Positions 25,941 through 35,501 of a DNA stretch of 35,501 nucleotides are shown in pieces. Source of the DNA: Bacteroides sp. (GTDB lineage: Bacteria > Bacteroidota > Bacteroidia > Bacteroidales > SM23-62); NCBI GenBank assembly GCA_030640625.1, contig DAOWJB010000136.1, positions 1 to 35,501 of the forward strand. The letters are read 5' to 3'. A model generated the notes under the pieces. The model worked only from the letters and a program-made list of their open reading frames with translations. It did not search any database and had not been told where the DNA came from. The number at the start of each line of letters is the position of its first letter. Within the stretch, counting starts at the first letter, position 1. A program made the position numbers and the translations under genes.

Positions 25941-26576
25941 TCAAATACGCTTAAAGATATCTGGCTCCAGTATGGCATCTTCTTCATTTCCGTATTTTAT
26001 GACGAACTTCTGCAACTCTTTGGTACCGGCAGTGACCAGGATACCATTATCATGTCTGATGTGAGAGATCTTGATCCTGTTATGTTCAATTAACTCCTCT
26101 AGGTAGGATGGATCAAAGAAACTCAGGGAAAGGGAATCTTCCGTCACTTTTACCTTGGAGAAATTATTTGCCCCTATCATATGCCAGGAGAGGAAACCAT
26201 GATCCAGCTCATAATCCTCCGGGTAGTAATTTAAGTAGTATTGTCCGTCAAGCACAAGCATATGCAAAACAAATTCAGCTTCCAGGGTATCTCCTTCCGA
26301 TACTTCATATGCCATTAGACGATAGGTCTTCTTTTCATCTGCCGGAGACCAACCGGGTTTATCCCTGGGAGACCAGTCGGGATTGAATAATCCCTTGTCG
26401 GGAGTACGATCGAGCCGTTCTATAACCCAGATACCATTATCACCCCCATCCCAGGTACCTTCCAACCGTTCATCCGTGACCAGGTCCTTTTCAGTATACA
26501 GCGGGAACAGGGAAGGGATACAGGAACCGGCCAGTGCAGTCAGCATTCCAACTAATAAAATTATTCTTGCCTTCAT
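25941..26576 (-). CDS. Putative lipoprotein, tandem paralog B
   Basis: Lipobox-like ALAGSC; CIPSLFPLYTEKDLVTDERLEGTWDGGDNGIWVIERLD aligns with the adjacent gene; ends ...LQKFVIKYGNEEDAILEPDIFKRI. Confidence 0.8.
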   Translation of the reverse strand: MKARIILLVGMLTALAGSCIPSLFPLYTEKDLVTDERLEGTWDGGDNGIWVIERLDRTPDKGLFNPDWSPRDKPGWSPADEKKTYRLMAYEVSEGDTLEAEFVLHMLVLDGQYYLNYYPEDYELDHGFLSWHMIGANNFSKVKVTEDSLSLSFFDPSYLEELIEHNRIKISHIRHDNGILVTAGTKELQKFVIKYGNEEDAILEPDIFKRI

Positions 26577-26586
26577 ATGATAGATA

Positions 26587-27231
26587 TTAGTTCAATTCGA
26601 AGATGGATGAGAAATCTGGCACGCCGGCTTCCAGCTGCTTTCTTACCAGCGTATCAGGCTCAATGAAGGTGGTACTGTCATTGGCGAATTTTGTTATGAA
26701 TTTTTGCAGTTCCTCTGTTTTAGCTGTCAACAGATACCTGTCGTTGAGTTCAACATAGGATATTTTGATCCGGTTGGTTTCTATCAGGTCCTCCAGCCAA
26801 TCCAGATCAAAAAAATGCAGGATCAGATATCGATCCGTGATTTCTGCTTTAGCAAAAATGTGGGTCGGTACCAGGTGCATATCCAGGAATCCATGCCTGA
26901 TCTCATAATCTACAGGAAAAAAATCCATGTATAGATCTTCTCCTAATTTCAGCAGGTGCAGGGCGAAATCTTCTAGTTCATCGTCCTCTCTAACGGTCAG
27001 CTTATAGGTATATCCGCTGTTATAATGTTTCCATCCATCAGAGAAGTTTTTTTCAAATTTTGGATCCAGCCTCCGGATATTCCAGTACTCATTATCATCT
27101 GTTTCGTACAAGCCGTCCAGCCGCTTGTCTATGAGCAGGTCCTTAGTCCTGTACAGGGGATAAAGTGAAGGGATACAGGATACAACGATGCCTGTTAGTC
27201 CAACAATAAACAAAACAGTCCTGATCTTCAT
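26587..27231 (-). CDS. Putative lipoprotein, tandem paralog A
   Basis: Lipobox-like IVVSC; CIPSLYPLYRTKDLLIDKRLDGLYETDDNEYWNIRRLD; shared C-terminal ELQKFITKFAND...EPDTLVRK. Gap to paralog B is 10 nt. Confidence 0.8.
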   Translation of the reverse strand: MKIRTVLFIVGLTGIVVSCIPSLYPLYRTKDLLIDKRLDGLYETDDNEYWNIRRLDPKFEKNFSDGWKHYNSGYTYKLTVREDDELEDFALHLLKLGEDLYMDFFPVDYEIRHGFLDMHLVPTHIFAKAEITDRYLILHFFDLDWLEDLIETNRIKISYVELNDRYLLTAKTEELQKFITKFANDSTTFIEPDTLVRKQLEAGVPDFSSIFELN

Positions 27232-28948: not shown

Positions 28949-30046
28949 GTGCAGCATAAACTGCTTACATATCTTATAGGACTCTGGCTATCTGTGTTTC
29001 TTTCAGGACAGGCCCGGGCCATGTCAGACCAGGACAGTACAGGGCGGAATGTAAAATTTGCAGGATTTCCAGTGCTGGGGTATACTCCTGAAACAAGGAT
29101 CATGGGAGGGGTATACACGCAACTTTTAATGGGCGACCCCATGCTCAGACGTCCCTCCTCCCTGGGCTTGAGTCTGCTGGTCTCCCAAAACCGGCAATTC
29201 TCTATCAACCTCCTGCCGGATATCTGGTTGAAGGATAATACTTACAGACTTGCAGGTGAACTTAAGTGGCAATACTGGCCGGATAAGTTTTTTGGGATCG
29301 GGAACGATACCCGGAAGGAAGACGAGGAATACTATGTCTCAAGGATTGGGGGGATCAAACTGGATCTGTTGCGAACGGTGTACAGGGAATTATATGCAGG
29401 CATCCTGCTGGAGATTGAAAATAATAACATCGTAGAATATGACACAATCCCCCATGCTTCACTTCCGGATGGATCCATCCCGGGCAGTACACACTCCACC
29501 ATTTCGGGGATAGGCCTGACCCTGGCCTGGGACAACCGGTCTGATATACTGCTCCCCTCCTCCGGAGCTTACTATCAGTTCCGCCTGGTGTACTTCAACA
29601 GGGCGATGGGCTCCACCTACCCTTATACAAAATGGATCATTGATCTCAGAAAGTACTGGACACTCGGGACTGACCATCTGTTGTATGTGCAGGCCTACGG
29701 CAAGTTCCTATGGGGAAAGGAAATCCCTTTCAGGAATATGGCAATGCTCGGGGGAGATAAACTTCTGCGCGGGTATTTCAAGGGACGCTACAGGGATCAT
29801 AATATGTTTATCGGACAGGTCGAATACCATACACCATATATCTGGCGATTCAGCCTGGTAGCCTTTGCCGGTGCAGGTGATGTTTTCCATTCCGCAAGCA
29901 CAATCCATAGGATCAGGATCAAACCAGCCGGGGGTATTGGTGTACGTTTCAAACTGTTTCCCGACCGCCGGATGAATATCCGCCTGGATCTTGCCGCCGG
30001 CAGAGATGACCATGGATTGTACCTGAATATACTCGAGGCCTTTTAG
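28949..30046 (+). CDS. Outer-membrane Omp85/BamA-like surface antigen beta-barrel protein
   Basis: Signal-like N-term; GIGLTLAWDNRSDILLPSSGAYYQFRLVYFNRAMGSTYPYTKWIIDLRKYW; LLRGYFKGRYRDHNMFIGQVEYHTPYIWRFSLVAFAGAGDVF; GGIGVRFKL. Starts at GTG. Confidence 0.85.
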   Translation: MQHKLLTYLIGLWLSVFLSGQARAMSDQDSTGRNVKFAGFPVLGYTPETRIMGGVYTQLLMGDPMLRRPSSLGLSLLVSQNRQFSINLLPDIWLKDNTYRLAGELKWQYWPDKFFGIGNDTRKEDEEYYVSRIGGIKLDLLRTVYRELYAGILLEIENNNIVEYDTIPHASLPDGSIPGSTHSTISGIGLTLAWDNRSDILLPSSGAYYQFRLVYFNRAMGSTYPYTKWIIDLRKYWTLGTDHLLYVQAYGKFLWGKEIPFRNMAMLGGDKLLRGYFKGRYRDHNMFIGQVEYHTPYIWRFSLVAFAGAGDVFHSASTIHRIRIKPAGGIGVRFKLFPDRRMNIRLDLAAGRDDHGLYLNILEAF

Positions 30047-30078
30047 GATTCTAATAATCTTATAAAAGAATTATACTC

Positions 30079-31737
30079 ATGAGAAATACCGGTTTACTTA
30101 TCATGCTCCTCGCCCTTATCAGTGTTCATTGCACAAAAAATGAGAAAACAGGAGATCAGATCAGCACAAAGGACATCGCGGTGACGGAGAAACTTTTTGG
30201 ACTGGAATTTATTAAGGCTGAACGGGACAGCATGCTGCAAGGTGTCAATTCTAACCTTGAGTCCTACAGGAAGATCCATGATTTCAGCCTGGAAAATAAA
30301 ATTCCGCCCGCCCTGGTATTTAATCCTATACCACCTGGATTTCAGCCAGACCTGCAGAGCAGGCCTGTTCAATGGCCCATACCAGTCAAAGTGAGCATGC
30401 CAGAAGACATCAATGAGCTTGCATTTTATAGTGTGGCGGAGCTTTCTGCACTTATCAGAAACAGGCAGATCTCTTCCATGGAACTTACCCGGTTTTTTAT
30501 TGAACGGCTGGAAAAATATAGTGATACCCTGCAATGCCTGGTCACCCTTACCCCTGAGGTGGCCCTGGAACAGGCCAGGATGGCCGACGAGGAAATCAGC
30601 CAGGGTGGGTACAGGGGACCTTTACATGGTATTCCTTATGGTATCAAAGATCTTTTTGCTCACCCTGACTACCCGACAAGCTGGGGAGCCATGCCATTCA
30701 AGGACCAGGTAATCAATGAAAAGGCGGCAGTAATCCGAAAGCTGGAAGATGCTGGTGCTGTAATGGTGGCAAAACTAACCCTGGGCGCCCTTGCCATGGG
30801 AGATGTATGGTACGGGGGAAAAACACGGAATCCCTGGAACATGGAACAGGGTTCCAGCGGATCTTCGGCAGGCTCGGCAGCAGCGACTGCAGCTGGCCTG
30901 CTTCCCTTTGCCATTGGCACAGAAACCTGGGGTTCCATCGTCTCTCCAAGTAACCGCTGCGGGGTAACCGGGCTCCGGCCCACATTCGGCAGGGTAAGCA
31001 GGGCTGGTGCCATGGCCCTCTCATGGAGCATGGACAAGGGGGGACCCATATGCCGTTCCGCACTTGATTGTGGAATCGTATTCCAGGCAATAACAGGCCA
31101 TGACCCGGCAGATCCATCCACCCTGGATGTTCCGTTTAATTATGCCTCCATGAAAGATTTATCCTCGCTTAAAATCGCTTATCTCAGTTTTCTTTTTAAT
31201 GATGACCAGGACAACCGGGAGAATGACAGCCTATCGCTCGAAACCTTTAAAAAGCTGGGTATTCAGCCTGAAAAGCTGGATCTTCCTGATTCAATCCCTG
31301 TTGAAGCGCTCGCTCTCATTCTGGATACTGAAGCTGCAGCAGCCTTTGATGACCTTACCAGGAGCAAGCAGGATGATCTGCTGATGCGCCAGGGACGCAA
31401 TGCATGGCCCAATTATTTCAGGCAATCCAGGTTCATCCCGGCAGTTGAATACATCCAGGCCAATCGTATCCGCAGCTTGTTGATAAACAAGGTGAACGAA
31501 CTGGTCAGGGAATATGATGTGATCATTTCTCCCACTTTCGGTGGAGACCAGATGTTAATGACCAATCTCACAGGACATCCCTGCCTGGTCATGCCAAACG
31601 GATTTACAGAGCACGGGAGTCCTGCAAGCATCTGCCTGCTGGGAAATCTGTTTGAAGAAGGTACGCTGATCGAAGTAGCCCGCCACTACCAGCTGGCAAC
31701 GGAATTTGAAGACCAGCATCCTCCCTGCTTCCAATAG
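30079..31737 (+). CDS. Amidase (amidase-signature family), probable lipoprotein/exported
   Basis: HGIPYGIKDLF (Lys), EQGSSGSSAGSAAATAAGLLPFAIGTETWGSIVSPSNRCGVTGLRPTFGRVSR (Ser-cisSer region); N-term MLLALISVHC. Confidence 0.93.
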   Translation: MRNTGLLIMLLALISVHCTKNEKTGDQISTKDIAVTEKLFGLEFIKAERDSMLQGVNSNLESYRKIHDFSLENKIPPALVFNPIPPGFQPDLQSRPVQWPIPVKVSMPEDINELAFYSVAELSALIRNRQISSMELTRFFIERLEKYSDTLQCLVTLTPEVALEQARMADEEISQGGYRGPLHGIPYGIKDLFAHPDYPTSWGAMPFKDQVINEKAAVIRKLEDAGAVMVAKLTLGALAMGDVWYGGKTRNPWNMEQGSSGSSAGSAAATAAGLLPFAIGTETWGSIVSPSNRCGVTGLRPTFGRVSRAGAMALSWSMDKGGPICRSALDCGIVFQAITGHDPADPSTLDVPFNYASMKDLSSLKIAYLSFLFNDDQDNRENDSLSLETFKKLGIQPEKLDLPDSIPVEALALILDTEAAAAFDDLTRSKQDDLLMRQGRNAWPNYFRQSRFIPAVEYIQANRIRSLLINKVNELVREYDVIISPTFGGDQMLMTNLTGHPCLVMPNGFTEHGSPASICLLGNLFEEGTLIEVARHYQLATEFEDQHPPCFQ

Positions 31738-31818: not shown

Positions 31819-33651
31819 ATGAAGTCCTCATTCATATACTATTTCAGATATGCACTATTTTTACTAGGCATCCAGGCTATTTTCCGCATATCGTTCCTGA
31901 TCATCTATCGTGATAATGCACATGGGATTGAGCTGTCAGATCAATTGTTGGCTATGGTCTATGGCTTGAAGCTGGATATTTCCCTGGCCGGCTATTGTCT
32001 CCTGATACCTACCCTGTTATTATTCCTGTCAAGCATAATCAAAAAACTTTCAGTTCAGCGCATCCTGGATATATACACATTCATCATCCTGCTTTTACTC
32101 ATCCCTCTGTTTTTCACAAACCTGGTTGTTTACAAATACTGGAACTTCCCCATTGACAGATCAATTTTTGATTATTTAAACACACCGGCAGAAATGTTTG
32201 CATCTCTCAATTTTATAGGACTGATTATCATTCTTGGGATTATTATCCTCGTCTTTTACCTGTCCTATTTTATATTCTATCGAAGATGGATTTCAAAACC
32301 ATTCATGGCAGGGCAAAAGGCCGGATGGATAGAACCGGTACTTTTCTTCTTGTTAATGCCATTACTTATCATACCCATACGCGGTGGACTGCAAACATCG
32401 CCTATCAATACGGGATCCGTTTATTTCCATCAGGAAGCCTATGTCAACCATATAGCCGTTAATCCGGTCTGGAATTTGATTTATACCCTTATTGAAGGCA
32501 AGAAGTTATCCCAGTCCGTAAGCTATATGTCCGATTCTGAGGCCAGTCAAATCATAAAGGAATTGCATGATAATAATGACGATCCCTTCCCCGTCCTGAA
32601 TAAGGAATCTCCAAATATTATAATCATTCTGCTCGAAAGTTTTTCGGTGCCAATTATCGATGAATTAAGTAAGGATAAGGAAGCGACACCAGAATTCAAT
32701 GCTTTGCTTCCTGAAGGTATCTACTTCAATAAGATGTATGCCTCTGGAACCATGACAGACAGGGCACTGGGATCCATCCTGGGGGGATATCCGGGGATTC
32801 CCGGCACCTGCGTCATCTATTATGAACAGAAAACCCAAAAAATTCCCAATCTGAATAAAAAACTCAAAGCTGATGGATATAATTCAGCATTCCTTTACGG
32901 TGGAGATATTGATTTTGCCCACATAAGGTCTTTTTTACTAACCAGTGGATTTGAGAAGATCATTTCCGATTATGATTTTGCACCATCGATTCCCCGGTCA
33001 AACTGGGGCGTGCCGGATCATATCCTTTTTGAACGCTTACTGGAAGAGACAGACAGTGCTTCTTCACCATTTTTCAATATACTGCTAACCTTGTCAAGTC
33101 ATACCCCCTTCGATGTACCGATGGAAACCGAATTTCCCGGGAATGATCTTACAATGAAATATTTAAATTCAATTTATTATACCGATAAGGCATTAGGAAA
33201 ATTTATTTCTGTGGCCAAGACAAAGGATTGGTGGGATGAAACATTGGTGATTCTGCTGGCGGATCATTGTTGCAGGGTAGGAAACCTGACAGAACATGAA
33301 GAAATGCGATTCAGGATCCCCATGTTATGGCTGGGAGGAGCATTAGCTGTCAGGGACACGGTGATCAATAATTTTGGCTCGCAGACAGACCTGCCCTACA
33401 CGCTGCTCAGCCAACTGAACCTTCCCCATAAAGATTTTAAGTTTAGTAATAACCTGCTGTCAGAGAATCCAAATTCATTTGCCTATTACACTTTTCATGA
33501 CGGTATTGGATTCATCAATGATAGTGCCTATGTTGTATTCAATCTTACAACAGATAGCTATATTATAGAGCAAGACAAGAATTCCGGAAAGGACCGGAAG
33601 AAAGGATTGGCATATCTACAATACCTCCTTGCGGATTTTAATAAGCTGTAA
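31819..33651 (+). CDS. LTA synthase (LtaS)-like sulfatase-fold phosphoglycerol transferase
   Basis: Multiple N-terminal TM helices; SPNIIIILLESFS, GTMTDRALGSILGGYPGIP, FLYGGDIDFAHIRSFLLTSGFEKIIS, WGVPDHILFERLL, LLTLSSHTPF, LLADHC. ATG 31819 preferred over TTG 31810. Confidence 0.92.
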   Translation: MKSSFIYYFRYALFLLGIQAIFRISFLIIYRDNAHGIELSDQLLAMVYGLKLDISLAGYCLLIPTLLLFLSSIIKKLSVQRILDIYTFIILLLLIPLFFTNLVVYKYWNFPIDRSIFDYLNTPAEMFASLNFIGLIIILGIIILVFYLSYFIFYRRWISKPFMAGQKAGWIEPVLFFLLMPLLIIPIRGGLQTSPINTGSVYFHQEAYVNHIAVNPVWNLIYTLIEGKKLSQSVSYMSDSEASQIIKELHDNNDDPFPVLNKESPNIIIILLESFSVPIIDELSKDKEATPEFNALLPEGIYFNKMYASGTMTDRALGSILGGYPGIPGTCVIYYEQKTQKIPNLNKKLKADGYNSAFLYGGDIDFAHIRSFLLTSGFEKIISDYDFAPSIPRSNWGVPDHILFERLLEETDSASSPFFNILLTLSSHTPFDVPMETEFPGNDLTMKYLNSIYYTDKALGKFISVAKTKDWWDETLVILLADHCCRVGNLTEHEEMRFRIPMLWLGGALAVRDTVINNFGSQTDLPYTLLSQLNLPHKDFKFSNNLLSENPNSFAYYTFHDGIGFINDSAYVVFNLTTDSYIIEQDKNSGKDRKKGLAYLQYLLADFNKL

Positions 33652-33656
33652 TTTTT

Positions 33657-34583
33657 ATGCAGTCAGAAATATTGAAGATCCTTTTCATCATCAATCCCAT
33701 TCTTGGAAAAAGGCTTGGAATAAATGTCAAAGGTCTCATAGCTGAAACCCTGGATCCGGCCCTTTTTGAACCTGCCATACTATACTCCGATTATCCCGGC
33801 CATGCCACAGAACTGGCCCGGCAAAACCTGGACAGGTACCAGGTAATTGTTGCCGGAGGCGGCGATGGAACGATCAATGAGATTGCCAGCCAGCTCATCC
33901 ATACGGACGTAATTCTCGGTATCCTGCCTCTGGGATCGGGAAAAGGGCTGGCACGATCACTGGGCATACCAATGGATATCAAAAAGGCCATTCAAACCAT
34001 TAACGACTTTACAGTTATGGAAATAGATACGGGCATGGCGAATCAATACAGATTCATAAATATTGCCGGCATTGGTTTTGATGCCAGGGTGGCCCATGCC
34101 TATGCCAATAAAACCGGCAGGGGGTTCTTCACCTATGCCATACAAACGGCAAAGCACTTGTTTCGATATGCCCCGATACCTGTACAAATAAGGACCGGCC
34201 AGCGGGAAATTTCGGTGAATGCTTTCCTGGTGTCTATTGCCAATTCAACCCAATGGGGCTACGGCGCACTTATCAGTCCGGATGCCAAAACAGATGACGG
34301 TATCCTGGACCTGTGCCTCTTGAGGAATTTCCCCAGGATATTAACACCTGAACTGCTAAGCAGGTTATTTAACGGATCCATCCATAAATCAAAATATGTC
34401 GAGATCATCCCCATAAAACAGGCAGAGATAACCGGGTCTGATAAATATATCGGACACATTGACGGGGAACCTGTCGAATTTACTGCACCACTCAACATTT
34501 CTGTGGACCCTTTGAGCTTAAAGGTTATTTGTGGCCAGCAGCCGGTCCGGGATCATCCCGGCCTCACCAACCAGAAAACCTGA
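33657..34583 (+). CDS. Diacylglycerol kinase / lipid kinase family protein (YegS/DgkB-like)
   Basis: KILFIINPILGK; VIVAGGGDGTINEIASQLI; LGILPLGSGKGLARSLGIP; NIAGIGFDARVAH; HIDGEPV. Confidence 0.93.
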   Translation: MQSEILKILFIINPILGKRLGINVKGLIAETLDPALFEPAILYSDYPGHATELARQNLDRYQVIVAGGGDGTINEIASQLIHTDVILGILPLGSGKGLARSLGIPMDIKKAIQTINDFTVMEIDTGMANQYRFINIAGIGFDARVAHAYANKTGRGFFTYAIQTAKHLFRYAPIPVQIRTGQREISVNAFLVSIANSTQWGYGALISPDAKTDDGILDLCLLRNFPRILTPELLSRLFNGSIHKSKYVEIIPIKQAEITGSDKYIGHIDGEPVEFTAPLNISVDPLSLKVICGQQPVRDHPGLTNQKT

Positions 34584-34625
34584 GCGCAAATTACCCCATG
34601 ATTAATTCAAATATGCAAAATTTAA

Positions 34626-34648
34626 TGTGATGTGATGTGATGTGATGT
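34626..34648. repeat. Short tandem repeat: four TGTGA units plus partial TGT
   Basis: Direct reading of TGTGATGTGATGTGATGTGATGT in the intergenic region before the GntR gene. Confidence 0.85.
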
Positions 34649-34699: not shown

Positions 34700-35501
34700 A
34701 TGCCGGCAGCGTCCAAAATACCACATATCCCCATCTATCAGCAACTATTTGACAGTTACCGACAATCAATCATTACACAAGAGCTTAAGCCGGGTACCCG
34801 GATCAATTCGATAACTGAAATTCAGCAAAAACATACTGTTTCGAGAGAGACTGCCAAAATTGTACTGAAAAAACTCGCAGAGAACGGATTGATCATCCAG
34901 AAAACAGGAAAGGGATCTTTTGTAGCCGATCTCGGACCAAGAAAAATGAAATGGGCTGTGGTGGTCCCATTCTTCTCTTCCTACATCGAAAATTTGCTCG
35001 AATTGATTAAAACCGAAGCCGGGAACAATAATAGGGGATTGGAACTCTATGTAGATTATAACAATCCAAAAGAAGAGATCCGGCTGGTAGGTGAGTTGAT
35101 TAACAAACGCTATGAAGCTGTCATCGTCATCCCTGTTTCTGATGAGACGAGCACTGCTGGATTTTACAGAAACCTGACATCCGGCGGTACGGTGGTAACC
35201 CTGCTGAACCATACCATGGCAGGTTCACATTTTACCTATGTAATACAGAGCTACGATCTTGGTGTGAAAAGAGCTGTCAAATATCTTGTTTCGAGAACAG
35301 GTAAAAACCTGCTGTTTGTAAAAAACAGGGTCTGGGCAGAAACCAACATGGTCCAGGAACTTATGGAAAGTACGTTCAGGAGTTTTACAGATGAAGAAAT
35401 TTCCGGGCAGAAGGCGCTTGCATGCGGCCATCTTGGTGAAATTGACAGAAATTATATTGAACAAAATAACATCGGAGGAATATTCTGCTGTGATGATATG
35501 G
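34700..35501 (+). CDS. GntR family transcriptional regulator with LacI/periplasmic-binding-like effector domain (truncated by window edge)
   Basis: MPAASKIPHIPIYQQLFDSYRQSIITQELKPGTRINSITEIQQKHTVSRETAKIVLKKLAENGLIIQKTGKGSFVAD, then WAVVVPFFSSYIENLLELIKTEA...AVIVIPVSDE...GGIFCCDDM. Open to the edge, hence absent from the ORF track. Confidence 0.93.
   Translation, partial: MPAASKIPHIPIYQQLFDSYRQSIITQELKPGTRINSITEIQQKHTVSRETAKIVLKKLAENGLIIQKTGKGSFVADLGPRKMKWAVVVPFFSSYIENLLELIKTEAGNNNRGLELYVDYNNPKEEIRLVGELINKRYEAVIVIPVSDETSTAGFYRNLTSGGTVVTLLNHTMAGSHFTYVIQSYDLGVKRAVKYLVSRTGKNLLFVKNRVWAETNMVQELMESTFRSFTDEEISGQKALACGHLGEIDRNYIEQNNIGGIFCCDDM

Follow-up and report, generated by a model that had tools for sequence, protein, structure and literature searches.

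In Escherichia coli, head-group transfer by OpgB in MDO synthesis, and probably by EptA, is followed by rephosphorylation of the diacylglycerol by DgkA (PMC8027125). In Bacillus subtilis, the soluble diacylglycerol kinase YerQ has been tied to LTA production, according to work cited in PMC12280919. Below we compare a locus from the genome of a Bacteroidales bacterium, most likely uncultured, with two such schemes, namely LtaS or LtaP with DgkB in Firmicutes, and OpgB (MdoB) or EptA with DgkA in Proteobacteria.

Bacteroidota make up a major part of the gut microbiota, and the head-group modification of their envelope, together with the handling of the diacylglycerol that results, is little described in the literature that we searched. 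For two lipid kinases of the broad DAGK/SphK family from this phylum, a sphingoid base or ceramide has been reported or suspected as the substrate: PG1348 is reported to act on dihydrosphingosine (PMC9045371), and BT4322 perhaps acts on ceramide (PMC12280919). Arylsulfamates were found in a 2025 study to inhibit the growth of Bacteroides by way of a lipid kinase belonging to the same broad family, an enzyme whose substrate is unsettled (PMC12280919).

The locus analyzed here lies near the end of a window of 35,501 nucleotides, by which we mean the whole stretch of DNA studied, and consists of two genes on the plus strand, a predicted LtaS/OpgB-type head-group transferase followed directly by a predicted lipid kinase. 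Their features are collected in Table 1. The positions, shared strand and spacing of the genes agree with the original prediction, which was also right in pairing an LtaS-type transferase with a neighbouring lipid kinase of the DgkB/YegS type in a Gram-negative genome. The transferase starts with an ATG at 31819, and an in-frame alternative start, TTG, is found 9 nt further upstream. We note that the source genome (4.0 Mb in 352 contigs) is approximately 90% complete, so that gene absences are provisional. No description of this transferase–kinase pair was found in the literature searched.

Table 1. Positions of the gene pair and of its catalytic and motif residues within the window
Feature	Position	Strand	Remarks
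LtaS/OpgB-type head-group transferase, predicted	31819..33651	+	610 aa; approximately 5 N-terminal membrane helices, periplasmic alkaline-phosphatase/sulfatase-fold domain
DgkB/YegS/SphK-family cytoplasmic lipid kinase, predicted	33657..34583	+	308 aa
Intergenic gap, transferase stop to kinase start	33652..33656	+	5 nt
E273, metal ligand (equivalent to LtaS E255)	32635..32637	+	invariant in 65/65 aligned sequences
T313, putative catalytic nucleophile (equivalent to LtaS T300)	32755..32757	+	first residue of predicted helix
H428, active-site His (equivalent to LtaS H416)	33100..33102	+	invariant in 65/65
D482-H483, metal ligands (equivalent to LtaS D475-H476)	33262..33267	+	invariant in 65/65
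GGDG nucleotide-binding motif, kinase residues 68-71	33858..33869	+	invariant in alignments of 60, 17 and 49 kinases
K96 of GSGKGLAR, in place of near-invariant Asn	33942..33944	+	Lys in 4/4 genus genomes with kinase

The transferase matches the Pfam family Sulfatase (PF00884, 7.8e-37). Its closest solved structure in sequence searches is VP1736 of Vibrio parahaemolyticus (PDB 3LXQ, 1.5e-41), followed by YfnI, LtaP and LtaS, and a profile of the transferase family matched 3LXQ at 7.4e-79 and the LtaS-type chains at 1e-42 to 3e-32. A Foldseek search with the AlphaFold2 model retrieved the same structures as the sequence searches (3lxq and 4uor); the mean pLDDT of this model is a moderate 66.7, higher across much of the catalytic domain, and it was used for the fold only. 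VP1736 is the nearest solved relative by both sequence and fold; it was deposited as an uncharacterized protein, and it has Ser at the nucleophile position where the window transferase has Thr. With LtaS and LtaP the window transferase shares a five-helix membrane part, an extracytoplasmic domain of alkaline-phosphatase fold, and the Glu, Thr and Asp-His set of metal and catalytic residues. A search with the second transferase subfamily described below (subfamily B) found no further strong LtaS-type protein in the source genome.

The catalytic Thr and the metal ligands, which had been set beforehand as a test of the original prediction, are in place. E273, D482 and H483 do not vary among the 65 aligned sequences, and position 313 is the sole position of its loop that is Ser or Thr in every one of them, being Thr in the family of the window transferase and mostly Ser in the others. 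A predicted helix begins at residue 313 in the AlphaFold2 model, and a helix start is where the nucleophile of the LtaS/alkaline-phosphatase-fold superfamily is expected. HMMER alignments print M312 opposite T300 of LtaS; we rejected this counterpart because 313 alone is Ser or Thr throughout and begins the predicted helix. On the alignment and the model, a difference of one residue in the length of the loop would account for the printed alignment. Between close members of the genus the transferase has a dN/dS of approximately 0.11. To judge from its sequence it appears to be an intact LtaS-type enzyme, the head group of which homology cannot tell.

The kinase matches DAGK_cat (PF00781, 1.2e-26) and YegS_C (PF19279, 1.7e-23) in Pfam, and its score of 133.9 bits against the YegS/Rv2252/BmrU subfamily TIGR00147 exceeds the cut-off of 118.65; the two-domain fold and the GGDG motif are kept. 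Its sequence matches are bacterial diacylglycerol kinases and YegS, and against the DgkB equivalog (PRK13337, diacylglycerol kinase) it scores 97.7, compared with a cut-off of 385. The AlphaFold2 model is of high quality (pLDDT 92.7). Foldseek placed DgkB (2qvl/2qv7) at the top with SphK1 close behind, at a TM score of approximately 0.78 for both, and since it cannot separate the two, the fold is silent on the substrate. In one other genome (G060, L103:3564-5753) a homologous kinase carries a C-terminal domain of the Beta-lactamase family (PF00144), the fusion forming a single ORF of 729 amino acids.

Residues 93–100 of the kinase read GSGKGLAR where GSGN was expected, as the original prediction had correctly pointed out. 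The usual motif of the family is GSGNG, with Asn at the position of K96 in 56 of 60 kinases across the order and also in G006, a genome of the same family as the window. The Lys is specific to the genus: it is common to the window genome and to G001, G002 and G003, the genus genomes that have the kinase, and its recurrence in these three other genomes rules out a sequencing error. The loop around residue 16 is unusual too, reading NPILE or NPILG as against NPISG. Decay of the kinase, which might be suspected from GSGKG, was considered and rejected, because all other motifs are intact and the dN/dS of approximately 0.25 between close genus members indicates purifying selection. That GSGKG alters nucleotide or lipid specificity is only a guess.

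The sample of the order represents approximately 120 families. Kinase homologues are present in 138 of its 149 genomes, and the named relatives that have a homologous kinase are Bacteroidales and other Bacteroidota. The same transferase stands immediately upstream of the kinase in G001, G002, G003 and G006, with gaps of at most 5 nt or touching genes. These are all the genus and family relatives that have the kinase beside readable sequence, and conservation of the pair, the other test fixed in advance, holds for every one of them. The upstream neighbour could be read at 133 distinct kinase loci. In 38 of these (approximately 29%, the window counted) an LtaS-type gene lies directly upstream on the same strand, and the gaps in relatives range from −29 to +219 nt, mostly below 20 nt. 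We estimate that random placement of a few such genes in a genome of 3–4 Mb would give well under one case overall. Conservation of the pair far exceeds chance expectation.

The wider surroundings are less constant. In the window the order is Omp85-family protein, amidase-like protein, transferase, kinase and GntR-type regulator, with the flanking genes at 28949-31737 and 34700-35500, and it is identical in G001 and G002. This arrangement of Omp85, amidase-like and GntR-type genes is absent from G003 and G006, so that the pair outlives its neighbourhood. The stretch that separates the kinase from the GntR-type regulator contains a perfect 5-bp tandem repeat, ATGTG, in 4.8 copies (34625-34648), which could be a spacer of variable length.

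Two distinct transferase subfamilies take part in the pairing. Subfamily A, to which the window transferase belongs, is usually on a contig other than that of the kinase outside the genus and family. Subfamily B lies directly upstream of a homologous kinase in 33 further loci, spanning Bacteroidales, Flavobacteriales (such as Fluviicola) and other Bacteroidota. The two, which diverged anciently, are approximately 20–28% identical and form separate branches of the transferase tree at 100% SH-aLRT. In the kinase tree the A-paired kinases form a single clade (98%), and the B-paired label must have changed at least 6 times on well-supported branches, and 15 times in total. Several kinases without a transferase partner are directly preceded by a small lipoprotein gene, one that elsewhere stands before B, which suggests that B was lost there from an older lipoprotein–B–kinase order. 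One kinase (L104, in G053) is flanked by two B-type transferases, one on each side. The strongest evidence that the transferase and kinase activities are linked is that two distinct transferase subfamilies adjoin one kinase family.

The pair would work like the known diacylglycerol recycling schemes, yet the transferase and the kinase do not reach the equivalog cut-offs of LtaS, OpgB or DgkB. We consider head-group transfer by the envelope transferase, with recycling of diacylglycerol by the paired kinase, to be the best explanation and a probable one. The two genes would form an operon-like pair serving one cycle. The membrane-anchored transferase, using its Thr nucleophile and metal in the periplasmic domain, would remove the phosphorylated head group from a glycerophospholipid, here more likely phosphatidylethanolamine than phosphatidylglycerol, and hand it to a glycan or lipid of the envelope; diacylglycerol would stay behind in the membrane. 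Diacylglycerol reaching the inner leaflet would then be converted by the cytoplasmic kinase to phosphatidic acid and return to phospholipid synthesis. Conservation of the pair, intact catalytic and metal residues, the LtaS-type fold of the transferase and DgkB as the best fold match of the kinase all point to recycling. The proposed cycle resembles the OpgB/EptA scheme in its periplasmic transfer from a phospholipid and in the release and recycling of diacylglycerol, and differs from it in the kinase, DgkA being an unrelated integral membrane enzyme. It shares with the LtaS/LtaP scheme the link to a soluble kinase of the DAGK family, and differs in its Gram-negative host and in the adjacency of the two genes.

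No DgkA was recognized in the source genome (approximately 90% complete) or in G001–G006, and another enzyme must therefore handle diacylglycerol. The paired kinase is a candidate. A second DAGK-family kinase gene, on contig C329 of the source genome and approximately 5 kb from the gene for a PssA-like protein, could do this recycling instead, which counts against the preferred reading, as do the reports cited above of a dihydrosphingosine-active and perhaps a ceramide-active member of the broad kinase family elsewhere in Bacteroidota; substrates within the family may vary from lineage to lineage. Across 57 genomes of the order, pairing shows no link with the absence of DgkA (Fisher p = 1.0): DgkA is present in 10 of 21 paired and 16 of 36 unpaired genomes. 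The kinase is therefore not simply a substitute for DgkA.

The original prediction combined diacylglycerol recycling, which is plausible, with decoration of a glycan or lipid with phosphoglycerol, a part that the results leave unsupported. For a phosphoglycerol transferase with phosphatidylglycerol as its donor and local recycling of diacylglycerol, one may cite that, among named families, the transferase matches LtaS and phosphoglycerol transferase I best, and that LtaS structures are among its best folds. These matches are far below the NCBIfam equivalog cut-offs, at 57.6 bits compared with 970 for LtaS, and 54.4 and 25.7 bits compared with 572 and 574 for OpgB. Contacts of Staphylococcus aureus LtaS with glycerophosphate include H347, D349, W354, R356, H416 and F353 (PMC4973235). 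Only H416 (as H428) and F353 are retained in the window transferase, where H347, D349, W354 and R356 are replaced by Y360, G362, A367 and I369. The sole CDP-alcohol phosphatidyltransferase found in the source genome is PssA-like, with 95.8 bits, just below the pssA cut-off of 107, and 40.2 against the pgsA cut-off of 109.1. Most of 60 genomes of the order likewise carry one such protein, and PgsA exceeds its cut-off in none of the 60, compared with 6 of 14 control genomes. Many genomes of the order may lack canonical phosphatidylglycerol synthesis, and the source bacterium, with a genome approximately 90% complete and other routes possible, may make no phosphatidylglycerol. We regard phosphoglycerol transfer here as unlikely. 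Less likely again is a role in sphingolipid metabolism, in which a sphingoid base or ceramide would be the substrate of the kinase, while the transferase would add a head group to dihydroceramide. Its appeal lies in PG1348, to which the window kinase is likened, as to BT4322, at the level of the broad family only, and the loss of which raises phosphoglycerol dihydroceramides (PMC9045371). It lies also in several genomes, Bacteroides among them, where a homologous kinase and serine palmitoyltransferase are encoded back-to-back. In Bacteroides xylanisolvens (L196:4178-7026) the kinase is divergent from serine palmitoyltransferase, and this arrangement, which recurs in several genomes, offers a lead to a sphingolipid role of unpaired kinases. 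Set against this, a CFB-type serine palmitoyltransferase (NF047600) was not found in the source genome (approximately 90% complete): the top scores are 351 (for a glycine C-acetyltransferase), 316 and 281 bits, compared with a cut-off of 640 and 691 for a true member. Close homologues are likewise missing from the six other genomes of the genus and family, and across the 57 genomes pairing shows no link with serine palmitoyltransferase (p = 0.77).

The least probable reading that we considered takes the two as envelope or lipid housekeeping genes that are merely co-transcribed and have no common metabolite. The modest fraction of kinase loci that are paired, and the separate contigs on which kinase and transferase lie in many genomes, speak for it. 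Order and strand are strictly fixed, however: of the 40 LtaS-type genes that lie no more than three genes away from a kinase in the neighbourhoods analyzed, 37 occupy the direct-upstream position on the same strand. Pairing is moreover kept in distant lineages and with both transferase subfamilies. Returning to head-group transfer with diacylglycerol recycling, the gene absences, in a genome approximately 90% complete, make diacylglycerol a likelier kinase substrate than a sphingoid base, and phosphatidylethanolamine a likelier donor than phosphatidylglycerol. More tentatively, this may be an LtaS-type enzyme that works in bacteria without phosphatidylglycerol. It would take phosphoethanolamine from phosphatidylethanolamine, transfer it to an acceptor in the envelope and have its own diacylglycerol kinase, with GSGKG in this genus changing the nucleotide or lipid preference of that kinase.

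If the donor proves to be phosphatidylethanolamine, LtaS-type enzymes would extend beyond phosphatidylglycerol chemistry. The conserved pair also provides a genetic handle on what the kinase recycles. Elsewhere in the window, on the minus strand at 25941-27231, two similar lipoprotein-like ORFs without a Pfam match adjoin each other, and are possibly a tandem duplication.
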